DNA of 32,833 nucleotides, from the IMG/VR virus record IMGVR_UViG_3300007276_000160, positions 1-32,833 of that record, one strand, 5' to 3'. This DNA is from a virus. The notes beneath the pieces are model-generated. The model searched no databases. It saw nothing but the letters and a program-made list of their open reading frames with translations, and was not told the origin of the DNA. The position numbers were made by a program, and so were the translations under genes. Position 1 is the first letter of the stretch; every line of letters starts with the position of its first letter. Below, piece after piece: positions 4,687-32,552 of the stretch.

Positions 4687-6915
4687 ATGTACAAGCAAAC
4701 ATTATATAAAATAGAGAACGACTACATTAAGCCTAAAGTGCTTAAGAGAATGAATCGTTACAAAAAATGGGAATATGGTTACAATGCTGAGCATGATATC
4801 GTGGTTATTAGTAAAACTGGAGAGATTGGAGAAATTTATGATATCCAGAATCTTAAAATCGCTTTACCTAAAGCAACAAAGAACATACATAAACGCTCAG
4901 ATAAAAAAGATGAGCAGTTCTGGGAGGCTGCGGAATATCCAAAAGAATTAAGCAAAATAAAAAGCGTATTTGATTGGGAAAAATACCCGTCAGACTTTAA
5001 AGAAAAATGGTACGATTATATCGACCAAGAGTTTAACTATAGAGAAGAAGGGTTTTGGTTTTACAACAATGGTAAACCTACATATGTAACAGGTACGCAT
5101 TATATGTACCTTCAGTGGACTAAAATTGACGTAGGTCATCCTGACTTTAGAGAGTCGAACAGATTGTTCTTTATATTTTGGGAAGCTTGTAAAGCAGATA
5201 AAAGAAGTTATGGTATGTGCTATTTAAAGAATAGACGTTCTGGGTTTTCTTTTATGTCGTCTGCAGAAACAACTCACCAAGCAACAATGTCTAGTGATGC
5301 TCGTTTTGGTATACTATCAAAGTCAGGAGCAGATGCTAAAAAAATGTTTACAGATAAAGTTGTACCGATTTCTATAAACTACCCTTTCTTTTTTAAACCC
5401 ATACAAGATGGTATGGATAGACCGAAAACTGAGTTAGCGTATAGAATACCGGCAAGTAAGTTAACTAGAAAGAAGTTGGACTCAAATGAACAGCTTGAAG
5501 AACTTGTAGGGTTAGATACTACAATTGACTGGAAGAACACAGGGGACAACAGTTATGATGGAGAAAAATTAAAACTACTAGTACACGATGAAAGTGGAAA
5601 ATGGGAAAAGCCAGATAATATTTTAAATAACTGGCGAGTTACAAAGACCTGTTTAAGGCTAGGTAGCAAAGTGATCGGTAAGTGTATGATGGGATCAACA
5701 TCAAACGCTTTAGAAAAAGGTGGAGCTAACTTTAAAAAACTATACGATAATTCGGATGTTAAGAAAAGAAACCGCAACGGACAAACTGGCTCAGGACTAT
5801 ATTCTTTGTTCATACCTATGGAATGGAACTACGAGGGATACATTGACACTTATGGGTTACCTGTATTCGATACGCCAAAAGAACCTGTCAAAGGAGTTGA
5901 TGGAGAGTTAATAGACATGGGTGTTATAGAACACTGGGAAAATGAAGTTGATGGACTAAAGAGTGATCAAGATGGTTTAAACGAATTCTATAGACAATTT
6001 CCTCGAACAGAGAAGCATGCGTTTAGAGACCAAACTAAAGATAGTATATTTAATTTAGTAAAAATATACGAACAAATTGATTATAACGAAGATTTACGTA
6101 ATACTAATATAGTTACAACAGGTAGTTTTCAATGGGAAAACGGTGTTAAAGACACAAAAGTTATATTTATGCCTAACCCTAGCGGTAGGTTTAAAGTATC
6201 TTGGGTACCTGGTTCAACTATACAAAACAGGCAAATTAAAAAGAACGGAGTAAGATACCCAGGCAATGAACATATGGGTGCGTTTGGTTGTGATAGTTAT
6301 GATATATCAGGAACCACAGATGGTAAAGGATCCAAAGGAGCATTACACGGACTGACAAAGTTTAGTATGGAAGACGCTCCTCCTAATTCGTTTTTCTTAG
6401 AATATGTAGCAAGACCTCAGACCGCTGAAATGTTTTTTGAAGATGTATTAATGGCTTGCGTATTTTACGGTATGCCTATACTTTGTGAGAACAATAAGCC
6501 TAGGTTACTATATCATTTCAAAAGAAGAGGATATAGAGGCTACTCAATGACAAGACCGGATAAGCTTTGGAATAAGCTATCTGTTACCGAAAAAGAAATA
6601 GGTGGTATACCTAACTCGAGCGAAGATATAAAGCAGGCTCACGCAGCCGCTATAGAAACCTACATACAACAATACGTAGGATACAAAGGAGACGAAGGTT
6701 ATGGCGATATGTATTTTAATGAAACGCTAAACGACTGGAGTAAGTTTGACATAACAAAAAGAACAAAGTTTGATGCCTCTATAAGTTCTGGTCTTGCAAT
6801 AATGGCCTGCAACAAAAACCTATATAGACCAAGCGCAGAAAGACAAAAGCAAAAGCTTAATATTAGCTTTACTAAGTATAACAATAATGGAGGAATTTCA
6901 GAAATAATAAAATAA
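4687..6915 (+). CDS. terL: Terminase large subunit
   Basis: A 742-residue DNA-packaging motor. ATPase domain: a deviant Walker A region CYLKNRRSGFSFMS (about 178-191), Walker B LLVHDESGKW (297-306) with the Asp-Glu pair, and a coupling motif MGSTSN (335-340). C-terminal nuclease domain: FGCDSYDISG with Asp536 and Asp539 as likely metal ligands, a second acidic site LCENNKP around Glu601, and late acidic residues near SSEDIKQAHAA (644-654). The length is somewhat above the common 450-650 because of an N-terminal extension of about 100 residues (MYKQTLYKIE...). It would bind the portal at the prohead vertex, translocate DNA with ATP and cut the concatemer. The portal gene follows after 3 bases. 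The identification rests on motifs plus neighbourhood. Confidence 0.9.
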   Translation: MYKQTLYKIENDYIKPKVLKRMNRYKKWEYGYNAEHDIVVISKTGEIGEIYDIQNLKIALPKATKNIHKRSDKKDEQFWEAAEYPKELSKIKSVFDWEKYPSDFKEKWYDYIDQEFNYREEGFWFYNNGKPTYVTGTHYMYLQWTKIDVGHPDFRESNRLFFIFWEACKADKRSYGMCYLKNRRSGFSFMSSAETTHQATMSSDARFGILSKSGADAKKMFTDKVVPISINYPFFFKPIQDGMDRPKTELAYRIPASKLTRKKLDSNEQLEELVGLDTTIDWKNTGDNSYDGEKLKLLVHDESGKWEKPDNILNNWRVTKTCLRLGSKVIGKCMMGSTSNALEKGGANFKKLYDNSDVKKRNRNGQTGSGLYSLFIPMEWNYEGYIDTYGLPVFDTPKEPVKGVDGELIDMGVIEHWENEVDGLKSDQDGLNEFYRQFPRTEKHAFRDQTKDSIFNLVKIYEQIDYNEDLRNTNIVTTGSFQWENGVKDTKVIFMPNPSGRFKVSWVPGSTIQNRQIKKNGVRYPGNEHMGAFGCDSYDISGTTDGKGSKGALHGLTKFSMEDAPPNSFFLEYVARPQTAEMFFEDVLMACVFYGMPILCENNKPRLLYHFKRRGYRGYSMTRPDKLWNKLSVTEKEIGGIPNSSEDIKQAHAAAIETYIQQYVGYKGDEGYGDMYFNETLNDWSKFDITKRTKFDASISSGLAIMACNKNLYRPSAERQKQKLNISFTKYNNNGGISEIIK

Positions 6916-21380: not shown

Positions 21381-22640
21381 ATGGCAAGAGTAAATTTAAT
21401 AGAAGGAGAGAGACTTGCAAGACAAGGTACGTTTATCGACTTGGCTAAAGCTGCAGAGCCTGCTTTCAAAGCGGCTGAATTAAAAATAGCAGAAAGAGAA
21501 GCAGAAACAGCTAGAGCTGAGCAAAGGACAGCTACATACTTAAGCAAAATGAAGTCTAACGTAGACCCAACTAAACTTTCCGACGAACAACAGAAAGCGG
21601 TGCAAAAATTTGCTGGAGAACAGAAGCAAAAATACTTAGACGCTGCAGTTGCTTTAGGAGGGTTAAAATCAACAGACCCTGGTTACATAGAGCAAGTTGA
21701 CATTATGAACTCTGTTAATAGATCTTTTGAAAACTTAAATGCTAACATAAAAGGATATATTAAAGATAAAATTAATTATCACGAGGACTGGAAGGAGGGT
21801 CAAGTCTCAAAAGGAGACGCTTCTAGATACTCTAAAGCATCCGAAATATACGATCCTTCTACTGTTTTTAATTTATCAGAAAATGGCGGGATGTTTTTTG
21901 GAGAGGGTGAAGATTCTATAGATTATAGTGACTGGACTCCTCCTGCGCCACTTGCTCATACTCAAGCAACAACTATACTTAATTTGGCAAATAGCGCTCA
22001 TGACAATTCCTTTAATAGCGGACGGGAAGTAACACCCGGTCAGCTAGAGGTTTACAGATCTCAGCTTGAAGAAAGTATTGGAGCAAACCCAGATGTTATA
22101 AAGTCTTTAAGCAACGATAATTTATTAAGCAAGTACCCTGAAAATTTGCCAGAATACAGCGGCAAACCAGAGGATTATAAAGAATGGAAAAACGCTTACA
22201 TAGATAAAATAATAAAAGGTGTACAAGCTTCTTCTAGACAAGGAGTCAAAGAATATGAAGTAAAAAACAACATGCAAAACCCATCAACCTACAGAGGGTA
22301 CTCTAAACAAGCTCTTCAAGATCGGTTTGACAGCAAAGGCAATATAACTAAAGGAGAAACTGTGTACAAGTATGTGGCTATGCCCAAAGGTGAATTTAGT
22401 TATAAAGACGGCAAATACACTTACAAAGACGGTAAACCAGTTTCTAATGTTGTAAAAAGAGAACTAGAAAAAATAGACGCTATTCAGGGAACATCTGGAG
22501 CAGCTGCTACTTTTACTCCTGAGAATCCATTTAAACCTGGTTACATGGCTATAAATTTAAAAGACAATACTTACGGAAACAACTTTTTAACGGATCCTAT
22601 GGAGCTAGCATCAATCGTCGTTACTAAAACAAATAACTAA
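21381..22640 (+). CDS. Putative mid-size internal virion (ejection) protein
   Basis: A 419-residue mostly helical, charged protein. The first ~80 residues are an Ala/Glu/Lys/Arg coiled coil (EPAFKAAELKIAEREAETAR), the middle part has many Tyr, Lys and Asp residues, and the C-terminal third includes the repeat-like YKDGKYTYKDGKPVSNVVKR. No membrane segment or catalytic motif was seen. It lies between the small Gln/Ala-rich protein and the 2859-aa giant, the position of T7 gp15 (a periplasmic tunnel component) in T7-like phages, although it is shorter than gp15 (747 residues). The structural role is inferred from position; there is no family match I can name. The start is preceded by TAATTAAAGCGTAAGAAT, and the next gene begins 15 bases after its stop. 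Confidence 0.65.
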   Translation: MARVNLIEGERLARQGTFIDLAKAAEPAFKAAELKIAEREAETARAEQRTATYLSKMKSNVDPTKLSDEQQKAVQKFAGEQKQKYLDAAVALGGLKSTDPGYIEQVDIMNSVNRSFENLNANIKGYIKDKINYHEDWKEGQVSKGDASRYSKASEIYDPSTVFNLSENGGMFFGEGEDSIDYSDWTPPAPLAHTQATTILNLANSAHDNSFNSGREVTPGQLEVYRSQLEESIGANPDVIKSLSNDNLLSKYPENLPEYSGKPEDYKEWKNAYIDKIIKGVQASSRQGVKEYEVKNNMQNPSTYRGYSKQALQDRFDSKGNITKGETVYKYVAMPKGEFSYKDGKYTYKDGKPVSNVVKRELEKIDAIQGTSGAAATFTPENPFKPGYMAINLKDNTYGNNFLTDPMELASIVVTKTNN

Positions 22641-22654
22641 TAAAATACAATATA

Positions 22655-25600
22655 ATGTCAACAAAAAAATACTACGACTCTCAAAATAACGAAGTTGATA
22701 ATTCTGAATTGTTGGAGTTGTCTGAAATACTAGGCATCTCTACAGAAGCAGCAGCAGAAAGAGAAGGCTATACAACAAATTTTCAAACGGACCCTCTCAA
22801 GAAAAACGGTGCAAGTGCAGGGTCGTCAAACACAGCACCGAATGGGGATTTAGGTTCGGTAAATACTTCTTCGGCATCTCAAGGAGATGATCCTTATGCT
22901 AAGTACTATGTTACAGCGGAGGACTTAATGAAAGAAGAATCAGAGGTAGCTAATTTTATAAACAAAAGACTTGCTAGACTAGGTATAACGTCTAATGAAG
23001 GTACCGCTTTTGGCAGCCTTGACGCTATTAGACTTAGAAAAGCTGAGGACTTTGACACGTCCAACATGAGTATGATTATCCCGGCATTGGGAATATTTCA
23101 AGTTTTAGACAGCGTTGCTGTAGGTGAAAATAAAACAATCAAAGAGCTAGAAGAGTCGGCTAAAGAAATAAATAAATATATTAAAGAAAACGGTGAATTA
23201 GGGTTTGTAGAAGGAGTAGACGAGGATACTAAGGCTCAGTATAATAAGTTTTCTGAATATATAAAGCCTAATGACATAAGCAATGAAGAGGCTAGCGAAA
23301 AAATGAAAGCAGAGTTTGCCAGTTCGTTTAGAGTTATTAAGAGTAAGGAAAAAGACACCACAAACCAAACATCAAGCTATGCCGGCCTTGGGGGATATGT
23401 AGAAGAAGGTAGAAAAGCCACCGAAGAAGATTTTGCAAGCAAGAGAGACTTCGATCTTTACAACGAATGGAACGAAACAGGTATTATACGTGACTTTACA
23501 GAAGACGAAATTAGAGCGTGGGACGCGGAACGTAAAAATAAACATCGCGCGAAGAAAAGTACTGAATTCGTTAGTGACTTAGGCGCCTTAGACAGAGCTA
23601 AGGTTTATGCTTTAGCTTCTAAAGATGAAGAAGATATACTAAACTTCAATAAACAGTATGAAGACTACAATAAAACAGCAAAAAGCTTAGACGAAGCCAT
23701 AACTAACTTAGAAGAAGATAGAACCCAAGAAAATTACGACATAGCTAAAAGTATTCAAGCTAGTTTCATCAAAGAGCAAGAGGCGTTGCAAGCTACTCAA
23801 TCAAAAGCTGTTGATAGCGGCTTACTGAATAGAGCAGATACTTTACCCTATGCTTTAGAAGACTTAAGCAAAAACTACAATAGACTTCAGCAGCTTAGAT
23901 CAGGGGTTAAGTCACTTGGAGCTGATATTGGATTTGGAGTAATACAAATCGTTGACACGATGATTAGTCCAACAAAGCTATTTACTGAAACAACACTTGA
24001 GAGAAACCAAAGGATAGAAGATACATACGGTATTGTAGGGCTTGGTAGTGATTTGATTAAAGAAACCGAAGACTATCAAAAAGCTGTACAAGTTGATGAA
24101 ATTAGAAGCGTTAAAGACGCAGGTAGATGGGTAGCAGGATCTATGCCTAATTTAGTACCTTCTTTAGCTATGGCTTTTACAGGACCAGCAGCTATGCCTT
24201 TATTTTTCATGTCAGGATTTGGAGGAAAAGGAATGACTATTGCCATTGATCAGCAAGAAGCATACGGGCGTTTACTTGAAAATAGAAAAATATTAGATGA
24301 AAATCCTAATATAGACGGCTTTGAAAAGATGTTTATAGAGCAGCAGATGGAAAAAGATGCTAAGGTAGTAAACATTTCTAACATACAGGCTATCAGTACA
24401 CAAGTGTTGTACGGCGCAGCTGAAGTTGTGTTTGAAAAAATAGGTACTATGGCTTTGCTAAAAGGAGTAAGTAAAGGCGTTAAGGATTTACCCGGGGTAA
24501 CAATAAAAGAAGGTTTTTTCTTTGTTGGTAAACAACTAGGTAAAGCTTTCGGTAAAGAAGGCGGATCAGAATTTGCTACTACTTTCGTTCAGAACTTTGG
24601 AGATAGATTTATATTAGGAGAAAACAAAAACCTTTTTGAAGGCGGTCTTGAGTCGTTTGCTCAAGGTGCTTTAATGGGAGGGGGGTTTGGCGCTGTCGTA
24701 GCGGGCAGAGGCTTTAAGCAAGCATTTGTAAGTGCTTTAGCTACAGAAGCAGAGATGACTGCATTGAAGGATATAACTAATAAACTGAGAGAACTAACCG
24801 GAGATAGCTCAATACAAGGGCCATCGTCATTAGACGGTGTTGATATAGACGGCTTATACGAACCTGAAATAGCGTCAGCGATAAGAGACTTGTTAAAAGA
24901 AGGTAAAGCTAAAGAGGACGGCGTAATGTTCAAATTAGGAAGTAGTTTGTCTATTGAAAATGCTAAAGCAGTTGATGATATAAACTTAGAAATAACTAAA
25001 GCTAATAAAAGATTTGCCCAAGCAGCAGCTAACCCTAATGTAAAAGCCGCTGAGTTAGCAGCGTTAGAAAAGCAAACAAGACAAAAGATAGATAAGCTAT
25101 ATGAAGCTAGGGAAAAAATATTAACCAATGAAAGCAGCATAGCTCAAACAGAGTCGAATGCAGCGTCTCAAGCGGTATATTTTCAAAAAAGCAGCGGTTA
25201 TAAAATGTACAGCGCTAGAATGCTTGCTGAAAGCTCTGCGGCTATTAACTTAGAGTATTCTAAAATAAGCGAAGAAGAGAAACAGCAAGGATACGACGAA
25301 GCTAAGATTGCTCTGCAAAAGAAAAGCAAAGACGGCAAACAGCCAACTGCTGAAGAAATTAAAAAAGAAGCACAAAAAAGGTATAGAGTAAAAGCTTACA
25401 AGACAAGAATTAATCAAGGAAGAAAAAACGCACAGAAGTTTGCTGAAGACAATGATTTAGGTATAGAGTTTATAGTGGTAGAAGGAGATAATGCTGGGCA
25501 GCAAATGGTTGAAGCCTACGAAACCCACGCTCCAAAGCTGTTGAAACAACCCGTTGCAAAAGGAAGCGATAAAACACTTAAAGAAGCTCTCCTAGACGGA

Positions 25601-28600
25601 AGTATCGAAGGAAACGCAGTTACAGACAATTTAGTTATTATAAACTTAGAAGCAGCGGCCGAAAAAGGCAGGACAGGAATTTTTGCTCATGAAGTGTTGC
25701 ATATCTATGCTAAGAAAATAATTGGTAAAGAAAATGCTGATCTTAATGCGGCTGGGAAAGTTTTACTAGATTACCTAGAAAAAAATCAACCAGACTTGTA
25801 TGCTAAAGTCAAATTTAGAATAGACCAGAGTTACACGGTTAAAGACGCTGAAGGTAAAGAAGTCAAAAGCACCGCTTACTACGAGGAGGCTATGAACGCC
25901 ATGTCTGACGTGTTAGCTGATGGACAAAAAGTAGATGAAAGCACTATAGATAATATTAGACTATTCGTGAATAAGCTTTTACCTGCGTCTATGGCTTTTA
26001 AAAAGACAGAAGGAGAGAGTGTTTACTATTTTGTTAAGGACTTTAATAAGTCTAGTCACTTTGGAGGCAAGACTGTTAAAAACCCTGTAGTAAAAGTAAC
26101 TACGCCTGAAGAAGACAAAGATAAAACTACAGAAGAATCTAATAAGTTAAGTATTACTGTCGATAGTATCAACGAGCAAATGGACGAGCTAGTTGAAAAG
26201 CTTAACGACGATGCTATAGATTTTGACGCCTACAATTCACAGATGGAGTCTTTAGAAGCTAAATTAGAAGCGGCTGAAAAAGGAGAAGTAGTCGAAGAGG
26301 TTAAGGTTGAAAAACCTAAGCCAAAAACAGTTAGCACTGCTAAAACAGAAGAAAGAACCAAAGAAAGAAAAGATAAAAAGCAGATTGGAGACGCGTTAAA
26401 CGACATGATACCTGCTGATATGACTTCAGCTGAATGGACAAATGTAGCTGGTAAGATAATTGTAAAGCTACAAGACGGCATGCTATTTCCTTTAGTTAAG
26501 AAAATGGCTGCGCGAATGGGTATTGTCGCTGACAATGTATATGGTAAAACTTTTCAAGAGTTTTATGACGAAGTTATTGGAGTGCAGTTAGTTAAAAACA
26601 TAATGGGCTTTAAACCAAAAACAGAACAAAACCCTAATGGAAACGACGACTTTGGAGGTTACCTTATTGGTAGCCAGGCAGGTATATCAAATAGGATTAA
26701 AGAAGCTTTAATTAAGTTTAAAAAGCAATCTGAATTATCTCAAGCTGATGATATAACTACAGCTAAAGGAATTGCAGCTGAACAAGAAACAGCCCCTACA
26801 TTAGAAGATAAATCTAAATACAAGAACTTACTACAGCAAAAAGTATTAAGTACTGAAGGTTTGAAACAGGTTAGAAGTAAAATGATTACTATTGTAAGAG
26901 TTTTGAAATCTAAACTTGATACCGTTATTTCCAAAAACGCTAGTACTTCGCCTATCATAAACGAGATAAGACTTGCTGCGGGTAAGCAACTAGATCTCAC
27001 GTTTAAAGAAGAAATGGGAGGTAAGAAAAATCTTCAACTTCGTAATTGGACAATTGAGAATAAACAAGCTATTGTAGAAAACGCAACTACTACATGGTTA
27101 ATGGGTAAGGACGCCGGATCGAAAGTTCAGGGAGGTTTGCCTATTGCTATTGAAAAGTCTGTAGATGGTAAGTTTCTTCCATATCCTGAATGGGTTGGTA
27201 AAAAAATTGACAGAGAGACTACTGAAGGTAGAGGCCAAACTTCAGGTAATCAAATAGTAAGAAGAGCAAAGTCTGCTAATATAAACGATGCAGAATTCGC
27301 TGACTTTATTACTAAAGAGAATGGAGCACCTATTCCAGGTAGGAAAGAAGCTCTCGCTAAAATGCTTGCAGAAGAAACCGCGTTTGACTTACTTAAGTTA
27401 GACATGGAAACAGACGGGCCTGTATTCGAAGCTTTAAAAGCGAATCAAGAAGCATTAGGAACCGTCATAACTGATGTTGTCAAACAAGAGGTATCTAGAC
27501 AAATTGAAAGAGGAAATATAAAGCTTAGTATAGGACAGAGCGTAAACGAAGGTGTTGATATACTTGCGGCTAACCAAGGAGATACTAGCTCTTTGACTGT
27601 TCAAGCTTGGTTGACAGAGCAAAATGAAGAAGTTAAAAAGTACTGGGACAAATATGTAGTACCAGCGTTCGCAAAGCTTTCAACAGCAGTAAAAAGCGAA
27701 ATAAATAAAAATTTAAAAGCGTATAAAGATAAATATCCAGAGTTAGCAGCCGCTTACGATGGGTTTGCTACAAATGTTTTAAATGCGAATAATCTTAAGA
27801 AAAACGCAAAGGCTACTGCTGATCTTCAAAGCTTTCAAACTGGTTTCTCAAAAGCTATAGGTAACTTACTTAATTCTATACCTCGTTTTAATATACTAGG
27901 TAGCAGCACTAGATCTGGTGAATTAAATGAGGAAACACGTAGCAACTTAAAACAAGAACCAAAACTAGGTACGTATAGCAAAAGTATGGCAGCAGGAGTA
28001 AGAGCTGCTCTGTCGAATGTTATTGTTTTTAACATGGGTACGAAACCAGTTAATTCATTACTAGATTTTATTACTAGCAACCTAAAAAACGGAGGTTTAA
28101 AAATGCTTACCGATTTAAGCAATAGTGCCATAGGTAAACGTATGGCAGCTGCTAAAATTGCTAACGCTGTTTTATTTAAGTTCGTTAATGTATCAGCGCT
28201 TGAATCTGTGTTAGACTCTAGTGATGTAGTTAAAGCATATGAAGGATTCTTAAGATGGTTAGAATCGAACAACAATAATAGCACAGGTCTAAAAGGTCTT
28301 GGGTTTTTACAAGGTATTGAAGTTACTCCAAATCAAGCGGTATACACGGCAGTAGACGGTAAAAAATACTACTCCAGAGGAGGATTAAAAGTAGTTACTG
28401 CTGCTGAACAATCCAGCACAGGAGCGGGACTTGTAGTTAACACTAAGCACACTAACTGGAAAGAAGCCGAAGCTTTCTTAAAGAAAAAAGGGGCTTTTAA
28501 GAATCTTAAAAACTTTGCTACAAATAAAAAATACGACAGTATACCTAAAGGAGAAAAATTAGAATTTGTTAAAAATCTAATAATTGCGGAAGCTTTAAAA

Positions 28601-31234
28601 ACAACGTTAGAGCACCAAAAGTCTATGGGTAAAGTAGCTAAACAGTTGCAAGTAGTAGCAGCAGAGGCTACTGTGGAATGGATAAACAGCAAAAAAACCG
28701 CAGAGGACAAGAATAGGGTAATGCAAAAGTTTGAACAAAAAGTCGGTCAGATACACTCTGATTTTGGGTTGGTCTTTAATTCTACGTTTATCTCTGTAAT
28801 GCAGAACGACCAGCTAGGTCAAACAAACGAGCTTGACACAGTTAGACTCGTAGCTGCTCCTCGAAAGCTAACTGACAATATTTTAGATGTAAATACTGGA
28901 GAATCATTATTAGCTCCAGCGGTAGTTAAGCTTAAAAAAGAAATTGAGTCAAAGATTATAGACGATATAGCTAAAGCTCAAGAACTGTCTTCTGAAAATA
29001 CTGTTGGTGGATTATCTATATCTAAAAAACCTGTTGACTTAAGCCTAGAGTTTAATGAAATGATTGCGCGCCAGAAAGGTGTTGCTGTTGATGCGGAATA
29101 CTCTAAGATTGTAGCTAAAAGAATGGGTGCGAAAATAGGTAAGTATAAGTTTTATTTACCTTCATCAGCTGAAGATTTTAGATTATTAACGGGTTACACG
29201 TTTTCTGGTAAAGGAAAACAAGGTACTGCAGACATGAAATGGTTCGAAGACAACTTAATCAGACCATATACAAAAGCCATCGCAGCTATTGACAAAGCGA
29301 AGCAAACTACAAAGAATGACTTTAAAGCACTGAACAAGGCTATGCCTGACATGGCTAAAACTATCGGTGATTTAATACCTAGTAAAGATTATACCAATGA
29401 TCAAGCGGTAAGAGTTTATTTGTGGAACAAAGCAGGATATAACATACCTGGCTTAAACCAAAAGGAAATTGACAAGTTAGTCGCTTACGTAACGGGTAAC
29501 CCTAGGTTAGCTCTTTATGCAGACGCTTTACTTGCTATTTCTAAAAGTAAAAAATGGTTAAAACCTGGAGAGCACTGGGATGTGCAGACTATTCTTTCTG
29601 ATATAAACAACCTAACAGAAAAAGGCGGTAGAAAAGCTTACTTAGCTAACTGGATTGAAAATGTTGACGCTATATTTAGTGAAGAAAACATGAACAAGAT
29701 AGAAGCCTTATATGGTAAGCGGCATAGAGAAGCTTTAGAAGATGCTTTATATAGAATGAAGAATGGTACAAACCGTCCTTCCGGAGCAAACGCTCAGGTT
29801 AACAGATGGAATACTTGGTTAAACAACTCTATTGGCTCTATCATGTTCTTTAACAGGAGATCAGCTTTATTGCAGTTATTGTCTACAACTAACTTTTTAA
29901 ACTGGAGCGATAACAACCCTGTTAATGCAGCAAAGGCTTTTGCAAACCAGAAACAATACTGGGCAGATTTTGCTTACATATTTAACTCTGACAAACTAAA
30001 GCAACGTAGAGGAGGTTTAAGAGCTGATGTAAACGAAGCAGAAATTGCTAACGCAGCAGCTAATTCTAAGAACAAAGCTACTGCAGCGTTGAGCTGGTTG
30101 TTGAAAAAAGGTTTTACACCTACACAGATTGCGGATAGTTTTGCTATTGCATCTGGTGGTGCAACTTTCTACAGAAACAGAATTAACACTTACGTGTCAC
30201 AGGGCATGGATGTTAAAGAAGCTGAGAAAAAAGCATGGCTAGACTTTATAGAAACGTCTGACCAAGCTCAGCAATCAGGAGATCCCTCATTAGTATCGAT
30301 GGAACAAGCTAGTATATTAGGTAGAATGGTTCTTGCGTTTCAGAATACAACTCAACAATATTCAAGGTTAATGAAAAGAAGCGGTCTTGATATAGTTAAC
30401 AGACGACAAATGCCTGGTACTAAGTCTATGTTCCAGAGTGACGCTGCTAACTTTAGTAAAATTATGTATTACGGAGCTTTGCAAAACTTAATATTTAGTA
30501 GTTTGTCTGCCGGACTTTTTGCTTTAATACCAGGTTTTGGAGACAACGAGGACGAAGAAGAAAGAAACAAATCTAAAGAAGAAAAAACGGCAAGAATACT
30601 TAATTCGTCTATTGATTCTTTAATAAGGGGTCTGGGTGTAAAAGGTGCTGTTGTAATAACCATTAAGAACGTTATACAAGAATACTTTAAACAAGCAAAA
30701 AAGGAGTACAGAGCTGATCATGCTTATACTATCCTTCAAGCTGTTAACTTATCTCCACCTATCGGATCTAAGATTAAAAAGATTTACTCTGCTATTAAAG
30801 GTTACCAATATGATAAAGATGTAATAAAAGAAAGAGGTTTAGATCTTACTGCTAATGGTAAATTAAATCTTAGCCCAACATATAGAGTATTGGGTAGTCT
30901 GTCCGCAGGAGCTCTTAACTTGCCTTTAGACCGTATATATTCAGAGATCCAGGGTATAGCGGAAATGTTAGACGAAAGAAATACTATTTACCAAAGATTA
31001 GCATTGGCTTTAGGGTTTAGATCTTGGGATGTAAACGCTAAAAATGAAGAAGACGACCTAATAAAACTGGAAGCCAAAGACGTAAGAAAGAAAGAAGGAG
31101 CTCAAAAAAGTAAGAAAACACGTGAAGATAATAGAGTAGCCCGTGAGCGAAAGCTTAGCGGTATGAGTATACTTGAAAGAACTAATTTCTTAAGAGAAGA
31201 AAGAGAACAAAGAAGAAGAAAAAGAAATAAATAA
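22655..31234 (+). CDS. Giant internal virion (ejection) protein with metallopeptidase-like motif
   Basis: A 2859-residue protein, 26% of the window. Parts: disordered N-terminus (1-80); coiled coil (324-385); hydrophobic membrane-like stretch (491-522, e.g. GSMPNLVPSLAMAFTGPAAM); zinc-peptidase-like FAHEVLHIYAKK with His1012, Glu1013, His1016 and a candidate third ligand at Glu1077/Glu1078 (YYEEAMNA); acidic/Lys linker (1148-1242); long helical region; C-terminal block (2400-2640: TTNFLNWSDNNPVNAAKAF, GFTPTQIADSFAIASGGATF) ending in a hydrophobic stretch ALQNLIFSSLSAGLFALIPG; very basic tail. The C-terminal block resembles large proteins I recall in marine phages. Position after two ejection candidates parallels T7 gp16, which carries a transglycosylase; here a metallopeptidase replaces it. 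The stop overlaps the endolysin start by one base. HExxH alone is not proof of activity. Confidence 0.75.
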   Translation: MSTKKYYDSQNNEVDNSELLELSEILGISTEAAAEREGYTTNFQTDPLKKNGASAGSSNTAPNGDLGSVNTSSASQGDDPYAKYYVTAEDLMKEESEVANFINKRLARLGITSNEGTAFGSLDAIRLRKAEDFDTSNMSMIIPALGIFQVLDSVAVGENKTIKELEESAKEINKYIKENGELGFVEGVDEDTKAQYNKFSEYIKPNDISNEEASEKMKAEFASSFRVIKSKEKDTTNQTSSYAGLGGYVEEGRKATEEDFASKRDFDLYNEWNETGIIRDFTEDEIRAWDAERKNKHRAKKSTEFVSDLGALDRAKVYALASKDEEDILNFNKQYEDYNKTAKSLDEAITNLEEDRTQENYDIAKSIQASFIKEQEALQATQSKAVDSGLLNRADTLPYALEDLSKNYNRLQQLRSGVKSLGADIGFGVIQIVDTMISPTKLFTETTLERNQRIEDTYGIVGLGSDLIKETEDYQKAVQVDEIRSVKDAGRWVAGSMPNLVPSLAMAFTGPAAMPLFFMSGFGGKGMTIAIDQQEAYGRLLENRKILDENPNIDGFEKMFIEQQMEKDAKVVNISNIQAISTQVLYGAAEVVFEKIGTMALLKGVSKGVKDLPGVTIKEGFFFVGKQLGKAFGKEGGSEFATTFVQNFGDRFILGENKNLFEGGLESFAQGALMGGGFGAVVAGRGFKQAFVSALATEAEMTALKDITNKLRELTGDSSIQGPSSLDGVDIDGLYEPEIASAIRDLLKEGKAKEDGVMFKLGSSLSIENAKAVDDINLEITKANKRFAQAAANPNVKAAELAALEKQTRQKIDKLYEAREKILTNESSIAQTESNAASQAVYFQKSSGYKMYSARMLAESSAAINLEYSKISEEEKQQGYDEAKIALQKKSKDGKQPTAEEIKKEAQKRYRVKAYKTRINQGRKNAQKFAEDNDLGIEFIVVEGDNAGQQMVEAYETHAPKLLKQPVAKGSDKTLKEALLDGSIEGNAVTDNLVIINLEAAAEKGRTGIFAHEVLHIYAKKIIGKENADLNAAGKVLLDYLEKNQPDLYAKVKFRIDQSYTVKDAEGKEVKSTAYYEEAMNAMSDVLADGQKVDESTIDNIRLFVNKLLPASMAFKKTEGESVYYFVKDFNKSSHFGGKTVKNPVVKVTTPEEDKDKTTEESNKLSITVDSINEQMDELVEKLNDDAIDFDAYNSQMESLEAKLEAAEKGEVVEEVKVEKPKPKTVSTAKTEERTKERKDKKQIGDALNDMIPADMTSAEWTNVAGKIIVKLQDGMLFPLVKKMAARMGIVADNVYGKTFQEFYDEVIGVQLVKNIMGFKPKTEQNPNGNDDFGGYLIGSQAGISNRIKEALIKFKKQSELSQADDITTAKGIAAEQETAPTLEDKSKYKNLLQQKVLSTEGLKQVRSKMITIVRVLKSKLDTVISKNASTSPIINEIRLAAGKQLDLTFKEEMGGKKNLQLRNWTIENKQAIVENATTTWLMGKDAGSKVQGGLPIAIEKSVDGKFLPYPEWVGKKIDRETTEGRGQTSGNQIVRRAKSANINDAEFADFITKENGAPIPGRKEALAKMLAEETAFDLLKLDMETDGPVFEALKANQEALGTVITDVVKQEVSRQIERGNIKLSIGQSVNEGVDILAANQGDTSSLTVQAWLTEQNEEVKKYWDKYVVPAFAKLSTAVKSEINKNLKAYKDKYPELAAAYDGFATNVLNANNLKKNAKATADLQSFQTGFSKAIGNLLNSIPRFNILGSSTRSGELNEETRSNLKQEPKLGTYSKSMAAGVRAALSNVIVFNMGTKPVNSLLDFITSNLKNGGLKMLTDLSNSAIGKRMAAAKIANAVLFKFVNVSALESVLDSSDVVKAYEGFLRWLESNNNNSTGLKGLGFLQGIEVTPNQAVYTAVDGKKYYSRGGLKVVTAAEQSSTGAGLVVNTKHTNWKEAEAFLKKKGAFKNLKNFATNKKYDSIPKGEKLEFVKNLIIAEALKTTLEHQKSMGKVAKQLQVVAAEATVEWINSKKTAEDKNRVMQKFEQKVGQIHSDFGLVFNSTFISVMQNDQLGQTNELDTVRLVAAPRKLTDNILDVNTGESLLAPAVVKLKKEIESKIIDDIAKAQELSSENTVGGLSISKKPVDLSLEFNEMIARQKGVAVDAEYSKIVAKRMGAKIGKYKFYLPSSAEDFRLLTGYTFSGKGKQGTADMKWFEDNLIRPYTKAIAAIDKAKQTTKNDFKALNKAMPDMAKTIGDLIPSKDYTNDQAVRVYLWNKAGYNIPGLNQKEIDKLVAYVTGNPRLALYADALLAISKSKKWLKPGEHWDVQTILSDINNLTEKGGRKAYLANWIENVDAIFSEENMNKIEALYGKRHREALEDALYRMKNGTNRPSGANAQVNRWNTWLNNSIGSIMFFNRRSALLQLLSTTNFLNWSDNNPVNAAKAFANQKQYWADFAYIFNSDKLKQRRGGLRADVNEAEIANAAANSKNKATAALSWLLKKGFTPTQIADSFAIASGGATFYRNRINTYVSQGMDVKEAEKKAWLDFIETSDQAQQSGDPSLVSMEQASILGRMVLAFQNTTQQYSRLMKRSGLDIVNRRQMPGTKSMFQSDAANFSKIMYYGALQNLIFSSLSAGLFALIPGFGDNEDEEERNKSKEEKTARILNSSIDSLIRGLGVKGAVVITIKNVIQEYFKQAKKEYRADHAYTILQAVNLSPPIGSKIKKIYSAIKGYQYDKDVIKERGLDLTANGKLNLSPTYRVLGSLSAGALNLPLDRIYSEIQGIAEMLDERNTIYQRLALALGFRSWDVNAKNEEDDLIKLEAKDVRKKEGAQKSKKTREDNRVARERKLSGMSILERTNFLREEREQRRRKRNK

Positions 31235-31701
31235 TGGATACAAGTATGATAAGTAAGCATGTTTCATTTAAAGAAGGCACAGTTAGTTTTACAGCTTTAA
31301 GGTTAGGTATAGATAATACCCCCACTGGTTACCATAGAGCTAATATGGAGGTTCTCGCGGAAAACGTGTTTGAACCTTTACGAAAGTGGGTTGGTAAACC
31401 TATTAAGATAAACTCTTTTTATCGAGGACCAGAGTTGAACAAAGCTATCGGCGGAAGTTCTAAATCACAACACTGCGAAGGTAGGGCAATGGATATAGAT
31501 GATACATATGGTCATAAAACAAATGCTGAAATGTATGAGTACATTAAGGCTAATCTAGATTTTGATCAAATGATATGGGAATTCGGTACAGATGAAAATC
31601 CTGCCTGGGTACATGTTTCTTACGTGTCCGAAGATTCTAATAGAAATAGATGCCTGAAAGCATATAAAGAAAACGGTAAAACAAAATACAAAGTAATATA
31701 G
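31234..31701 (+). CDS. Endolysin, M15-type peptidase
   Basis: A 155-residue zinc peptidase predicted to cleave peptidoglycan cross-links or stem peptides. The sequence INSFYRGPELNKAIGGSSKS leads into QHCEGRAMDID, giving ligands His80 and Asp87, and WVHVSY gives His127: the H-x6-D...H pattern of the M15 family (D-Ala-D-Ala carboxypeptidase / L-Ala-D-Glu endopeptidase type). There is no signal peptide, so export through a holin is expected, and no cell-wall-binding domain. The length of about 150 suits a single catalytic domain. The ATG overlaps the stop of the giant gene by one base (TAATG). A membrane-anchored spanin-like protein follows after 2 bases, forming a lysis cassette. The 3TM holin lies at the other end of the window. 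Confidence 0.88.
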   Translation: MDTSMISKHVSFKEGTVSFTALRLGIDNTPTGYHRANMEVLAENVFEPLRKWVGKPIKINSFYRGPELNKAIGGSSKSQHCEGRAMDIDDTYGHKTNAEMYEYIKANLDFDQMIWEFGTDENPAWVHVSYVSEDSNRNRCLKAYKENGKTKYKVI

Positions 31702-32276: not shown

Positions 32277-32552
32277 ATGGGATATAAACAAAATCCTTCA
32301 TCAGCCGTAAAAGTGCGTAAAACCAAAAAAGGTTTAGCTCTTAAGCGCTGGTTTAAGGAAAAATGGACAGATGAGAAAGGTAATGTGTGTGGTTCGGCGG
32401 AGAACAAGAACACTAAAAAATGCAGACCTAGTAAAAAGATAAGTGGAGACACTGTAAAGACGTGGAGCGAAATGTCTTCTGCTGAAAAATCTAAAGCTGT
32501 AGCAGAAAAAAAACGAGTAGGAATGGGCAAAAGAGCTTCTAATATAACGTAA
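32277..32552 (+). CDS. Small basic two-cysteine phage protein (WF...W...C motif)
   Basis: A 91-residue basic protein: GLALKRWFKEKWTDEKGNVC then KNTKKCRPS, with cysteines at residues 38 and 49, followed by WSEMSSAEKSKAVAEKKRVG and a short tail. The layout (LxxWF, W, G, Cys, then Lys-Cys-x-Pro/Ser, then an Ala/Glu/Lys helix) resembles small proteins in cyanophages and other marine phages annotated as a domain of unknown function (from memory, DUF5872-like; accession not verified). It may be virion or DNA associated. The gap to the preceding gene is 14 bases. The next small TM gene starts after 2 bases. Confidence 0.78.
   Translation: MGYKQNPSSAVKVRKTKKGLALKRWFKEKWTDEKGNVCGSAENKNTKKCRPSKKISGDTVKTWSEMSSAEKSKAVAEKKRVGMGKRASNIT

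Follow-up and report, generated by a model that had tools for sequence, protein, structure and literature searches.

The closest described systems are the metallopeptidases (MPTases) of phage polyvalent proteins, a set that includes the C-terminal region of the N4 virion RNA polymerase and for which both self-cutting and host targeting have been proposed (Iyer et al., 2017, PMC5512222). These are giant multi-domain proteins found among virion genes, in which an MPTase with three strands, an HExxH helix and a Glu helix has exchangeable neighbours. The text of that study makes no mention of Cellulophaga or Flavobacterium, and an HExxH domain is reported, with no activity assigned, in the accessible portion of the N4 structure paper (PMC12633501). 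A related virion plan, with a muzzle and tail stores of ejected proteins, is known from phiCrAss001, whose cargo includes no protease mentioned in the accessible portion of that paper (PMC10172136). The protein analysed here shares the setting, the predicted order of structural elements and the exchangeable neighbours of the polyvalent MPTases, and judged by its sequence it belongs with the zincin-bearing polyvalent proteins of phages, hence to a known kind, in a family that lacks a Pfam or PHROGs model. It differs in having no detected RNA polymerase, LPD or ArdC domain and in that the Pfam MPTase-PolyVal profile fails to match its zincin domain. Polyvalent zincins have been described before; in the open-licence text searched, this family, its tie to flavophage virion proteins and the exchange of its cassette seem to be undescribed.

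The gene lies in a virus record from IMG/VR (IMGVR_UViG_3300007276_000160), of which the whole 32,833-nucleotide stretch was analysed (the window; Table 1). Related genomes are 60-79 kb long, so the 32.8-kb record is likely a partial genome. Upstream of the giant gene are genes for a terminase, a portal (phrog_6547), a capsid-type protein (phrog_13704) and a muzzle-like protein, a neighbourhood made up of the virion genes of Pachyviridae/Pervagoviridae/Elemovirus-like phages. The 419-aa protein encoded just upstream had no family match; proteins encoded at about this position in phi18:3 (gp121) and phi38:1 (gp100) carry structural annotations. A tblastn search with the terminase found 87 phage records, from phages of Flavobacterium (elemo), Cellulophaga, Tenacibaculum and Maribacter together with one unassigned; because of these relatives and of three Bacteroidota MAG contigs matched in genome collections, the host is suggested to be a member of the Bacteroidota. 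Past the endolysin gene, a DUF5872 protein (PF19197, E=7e-14) is encoded at window positions 32277-32552.

Table 1. Features of the window, with coordinates in nucleotides and the evidence for each.
Feature	Coordinates	Strand	Evidence
Terminase large subunit	4687..6915	+	phrog_6681 E=1e-168
Muzzle-like tail protein, 1452 aa	14521..18879	+	phrog_14478 E=4e-130; crAss_MUZ_C E=3e-4 (below cut-off)
419-aa protein just upstream of giant gene	21381..22640	+	gene order
Giant ejection-type polyvalent protein, 2859 aa	22655..31234	+	single ORF; homologues in 79 IMG/VR loci; locus equivalents in flavophages
N-terminal virion domain, ~residues 450-720, Gly-rich, hydrophobic helices	24002..24814	+	blastp to phi38:1 gp101, elemoF gp18
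Hydrophobic segment 500-518	24152..24208	+	Kyte-Doolittle mean 1.49
Predicted zincin metallopeptidase domain, ~residues 930-1140	25442..26074	+	AlphaFold2 model; hhalign vs Peptidase_M78
HEVLH, residues 1012-1016	25688..25702	+	invariant in 71 aligned relatives
Candidate third zinc ligand Glu1078	25886..25888	+	invariant in alignment; model helix 216-227
Charged K/E/P/T-rich stretch after zincin, residues 1145-1240	26087..26374	+	composition; pLDDT drop
Conserved central domain, residues 1400-1640	26852..27574	+	19 invariant columns, 45 relatives
Constant C-terminal domain, residues 2129-2859	29039..31231	+	~77 relatives, ~50% mean identity
Hydrophobic segment 2607-2625, inside C-terminal domain	30473..30529	+	Kyte-Doolittle mean 1.52
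M15 endolysin-like D,D-peptidase, separate downstream gene	31234..31701	+	PF08291 E=2e-15; phrog_894 endolysin E=3e-29

An earlier note on this DNA had described the 2859-aa frame, its HEVLH motif and the Glu residues of YYEEAMNA about 60 residues further on; we confirmed the ORF and each of these residues. Scanning IMG/VR with the window protein found 367 encoding stretches, from which 79 loci were retained, and the equivalents of the gene at the same locus in flavophages are elemoF gp18, MW202828 UOF82488.1, phi18:3 gp123 and phi38:1 gp101. The extracted ORFs have a constant C-terminal domain and a conserved centre, and their N-terminal two thirds vary far more. No enzymatic domain other than the zincin was identified in the window protein. 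When the full-length protein and 71 zincin segments were scanned against Pfam and PHROGs, the window zincin domain was assigned to no family; a PDB sequence search with the protein and its profile as queries gave no match, and neither did tblastn of the whole protein against INPHARED at E 0.01, a search that missed the N-terminal link seen by blastp of extracted proteins (see below). The conserved central domain had no match in Pfam or in a PDB fold comparison.

Two assignments were rejected, namely the C-terminal domain as LPD38 (PF18857; hhalign probability 0.3) and residues 1290-1400 as sigma-70 region 2 (hhalign at most 3.4%, no fold match, one weak PDB profile match at E 0.09). The wider stretch at approximately residues 1230-1400 (26342-26855) differs in type among relatives such as L015, L016 and L044, and some versions resemble sigma-70 region 2 by eye. 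In L005, L029 and L041 the giant gene is split near residues 1205-1400 and homology resumes in another frame, so these look like assembly frameshifts rather than gene fission. The hydrophobic stretches that the earlier note had placed at 491-522 and 2602-2628 do contain hydropathy peaks, but seven similar ones (Kyte-Doolittle mean of at least 1.0) occur elsewhere, at residues 138-156, 420-438, 584-602, 665-683, 1778-1796, 1835-1853 and 2656-2674.

In the window protein, FAHEVLH supplies H1012, E1013 and H1016, and YYEEAMNA supplies E1077 and E1078, the second of which is the aligned invariant Glu, 62 residues past H1016. Given the composition of the protein (11 His, 231 Glu), 0.0034 HExxH motifs would be expected by chance, and exactly one is present in 69 of 70 near-full-length relatives, for which composition predicts 0.4 in total. 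Across an alignment of 71 zincin regions (A1), column identity averages 16%, and no columns are invariant other than those of H1012, E1013, H1016 and E1078; since the rows were cut around HExxH, the invariance of the first three is partly by construction, whereas E1078 was not selected for. All four residues are kept in every member of a non-redundant set (<60% pairwise identity, 55 sequences), the next best column reaching 89%. We regard H1012 and H1016 as putative zinc ligands, E1013 as the presumptive general base and E1078 as a candidate third ligand. The four invariant residues bear out the gluzincin-like site proposed in the earlier note, and the prediction that the ORF carries a gluzincin-type (H, H, E) zinc site is supported. 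As we read the alignment, retention of the putative active site means selection for catalysis. The single exception, L036 (3545-12220), has EEIGH (codons GAG-GAA-ATT-GGG-CAT) in place of HExxH, which requires at least two base changes; its downstream Glu region looks kept, and its zincin is possibly a natural inactive version.

An AlphaFold2 model of residues 862-1176, built on the 71-row alignment, had a pLDDT of 86.9 (core mostly >90) and a pTM of 0.85. Along the model, strands at 77-81, 125-129 and 132-136 come first, then helix 148-162, bearing HExxH, and helix 216-227, bearing E1078, so that the motif and the candidate ligand are on separate helices behind a three-stranded sheet. We are highly confident in the prediction that this domain has a real zincin fold. 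Where the stretch at residues 1145-1240 begins, pLDDT falls to ~33-55; here K, E, D, R, P, T, S, Q and N make up 62-72% of 40-residue spans, and the stretch is a possible cleavage region. A Foldseek search of the PDB with the zincin model found no solved zincin; in BFVD the matches were a protein of an uncultured virus (E=9e-4) and the elemoC structural protein (E=5e-3).

We compared the domain by hhalign with profiles of known families built with Bacteroidota sequences, obtaining probabilities of 88.7 for Peptidase_M78 (PF06114, ImmA/IrrE type), 34 for SprT, 11.7 for MPTase-PolyVal and 0.2 for a sigma-70 control. As a null, all columns except the motif were shuffled 49 times. The M78 score of 42.5 compares with 26.7 +/- 2.6 for the shuffles (maximum 34.5), none of the 49 being as good, while SprT (1/49 as good) and MPTase-PolyVal (9/49) are not clearly above them; the MPTase-PolyVal profile (PF18818) had no match in the window, its hhalign 11.7% lying within the shuffled range. 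Although the M78 match spans only ~46 columns, it extends over a strand, a second strand and the HExxH helix, and the predicted zincin domain is thereby linked to M78 zincins by more than the motif. The two differ in that the matched stretch ends at the HExxH helix and that the HExxH-to-Glu spacing (62) is longer in the window protein; hmmscan with Peptidase_M78 gave no Pfam match for the window domain, the similarity being at the profile-profile level only. Of the structure prediction and the HMM-HMM comparison suggested in the earlier note, the first gave the expected secondary-structure order (strand-strand-HExxH helix-Glu helix) and the second the M78 score above all shuffles.

The connection to virions runs through the N-terminal domain. 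By blastp, window residues 470-714 match phi38:1 gp101 (E=4e-6) and residues 566-714 match elemoF gp18 (E=4e-9). The 1691-aa phi38:1 gp101 is annotated as structural by similarity, and phi18:3 gp123 (1935 aa) as virion structural from MS/MS proteomics; the latter matches phi38:1 gp101 (3e-19) and relatives of the window protein such as L015 (4e-12), and is tied to the window N-terminal domain through these intermediates. The window protein is probably a virion or ejected protein, as the earlier note had proposed in calling it an ejection protein, a description that fits both the virion gene block and the N-terminal domain common to virion structural proteins of cultured phages; we infer the packaging of the window protein itself from these relatives.

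The zincin is less constant than this link. The Pachyviridae proteins phi18:3 gp123 and phi19:3 gp129 and the Pervagoviridae protein phi38:1 gp101 resemble the window protein in gene position and N-terminal domain but are shorter (1691-1935 aa). HExxH was absent from the proteins examined in Cellulophaga phages (phi18:3, phi38:1 and phi19:3, at the same locus) and Tenacibaculum phages, the latter represented by Gundel gp90, which was chosen by size and has no clear homology to the window protein. Conversely, elemoF gp18 (Elemovirus; 3694 aa) and MW202828 UOF82488.1 (3859 aa) are giants at the same locus with HExxH, and the A1 profile recognises their zincins (6e-12 and 4e-7, respectively), although the zincin lies elsewhere in the protein and MW202828 has two HExxH sites. 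Conservation of HExxH in homologues, which the earlier note had named as a test of its reading, thus holds within the close family and breaks down in the shorter, more distant Cellulophaga proteins. Because of these shorter versions, the predicted zincin is best described as an accessory module of a conserved virion protein.

Several relatives have further features of their own. The 3859-aa giant of MW202828 (L084, 242-11821, minus strand) has HEFGH at 1615 and 2500, the one at 2500 alone being a good match to the A1 profile. In 25 relatives (e.g. L009, L030, L044, L062), ~900-1200 residues past HExxH, there is a DFDDT motif with the pattern of a HAD-like phosphatase, which the window protein does not have. 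Among 16 giant A3 members, one matches AAA_33/Zeta_toxin (~1e-12) and one DUF3293 (1e-12), which suggests further putative enzyme modules in these giants.

The zincin is part of a cassette that is exchanged between constant ends. Over 66 members, zincin and C-terminal identities (medians 20% and 50%) had a Spearman correlation of 0.12 across 2145 non-independent pairs, and in 145 of the 283 pairs whose C-termini reach 60% identity or more, these 145 spanning 52 loci, the zincins were <25% identical. L028 and L031, for example, are 92% identical at the C-terminus and 14% in the zincin by alignment, a rough measure for domains so divergent. The comparison of L051 with L055, made by BLAST, is independent of such alignment identities: the first ~70 and last 890 residues (87%) are common, with no detectable match between them. 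The two HExxH motifs are of different types (HELQH vs HELGH), and similarity in the DNA downstream is mostly 84-89%. Assembly chimeras are unlikely as a general cause because several independent contig pairs have the pattern. To judge from these comparisons, the central part is swapped between phages, each version keeping its H-E-H-E set.

Under the mechanism that we place first, the giant protein would be packaged with the DNA and exit the particle ahead of or together with it, the N-terminal hydrophobic domain aiding passage; in the host, the zincin would most likely act in cis on the giant chain, cutting it at flexible stretches (1145-1240, for example) and releasing the adjacent modules. 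The domain, its four invariant residues, the cassette exchange and the tie to virion proteins come from sequence; zinc binding, protease activity, the timing and the self-cutting step are what we infer here. Cutting in cis is favoured because the zincin is retained through exchange, as would be expected if its role were tied to the cassette, and autoprocessing has been inferred for the processed P1 DdrB protein (PMC5512222). However, there is no conserved cleavage site, phi18:3, phi38:1 and phi19:3 lack the motif at the locus, which speaks against self-processing as a universal need, and in N4 the vRNAP, likewise a giant with an MPTase, enters the particle without being processed (PMC5512222). 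We put self-processing as the zincin's main role slightly short of an even chance, and hold the whole explanation, a giant ejection protein with an exchangeable cassette and a functional gluzincin-type protease that processes itself after ejection, to be evenly balanced. In the close rival to this leading mechanism, the zincin is injected as an effector and would cleave defence or regulatory proteins of the host early in infection, its divergence and exchange tracking changing host targets. Divergence and exchange of the zincin are also compatible with such targets, as are its identity far below that of the C-terminus and nearly uncorrelated with it, the exchange of whole cassettes and its absence from some related phages, which suits an accessory weapon; Iyer et al. 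also list host targeting as a possibility (PMC5512222). Yet no target is known, a single zincin is kept more regularly than expected of optional effectors, and a substrate within the same cassette would diverge likewise, so that we consider a host effector possible but less likely than not.

Two further roles carry less weight with us than self-processing. An action in head assembly, in which the window protein or further virion proteins would be matured before the end of packaging, would agree with the position of the giant gene in a morphogenesis block and with the zincin-dependent pre-packaging cleavage inferred for P1 DdrB (PMC5512222), but the zincin is missing from related phages whose capsid, portal and terminase are similar, and it diverges and swaps far faster than expected of a maturation enzyme with conserved virion substrates; we consider it improbable. 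The earlier note had suggested that the peptidase opens the cell envelope during DNA entry, an idea that draws on the hydrophobic segments close to the domains at either terminus and on analogy with the internal core protein of T7, which carries a transglycosylase. We found no support for it: no cell-wall lytic fold was seen, the separate M15 peptidase gene directly downstream looks like the wall enzyme, and the module is absent from related phages that cross the same kind of envelope. This role is very improbable.

The finding accounts for a large protein that had carried no annotation in these widespread aquatic phages. Proteins that travel in the virion are at work before expression of the phage genes starts, and an injected protease could be a first strike on the host or an unpacking tool for a multi-part protein. 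Whether polyvalent zincins cut themselves or host proteins was left open by Iyer et al. (2017), and can be tested with the elemo phages, which have a cultured Flavobacterium host, BAL314. Phages with near-identical ends and different proteases are in effect a natural experiment on what each protease cuts. Tentatively, and at somewhat less than an even chance, constant ends and a swapped centre would make this a polymorphic ejection system in phages of Bacteroidota, in which each cassette's own divergent zincin may free its effectors in the host or attack host proteins.
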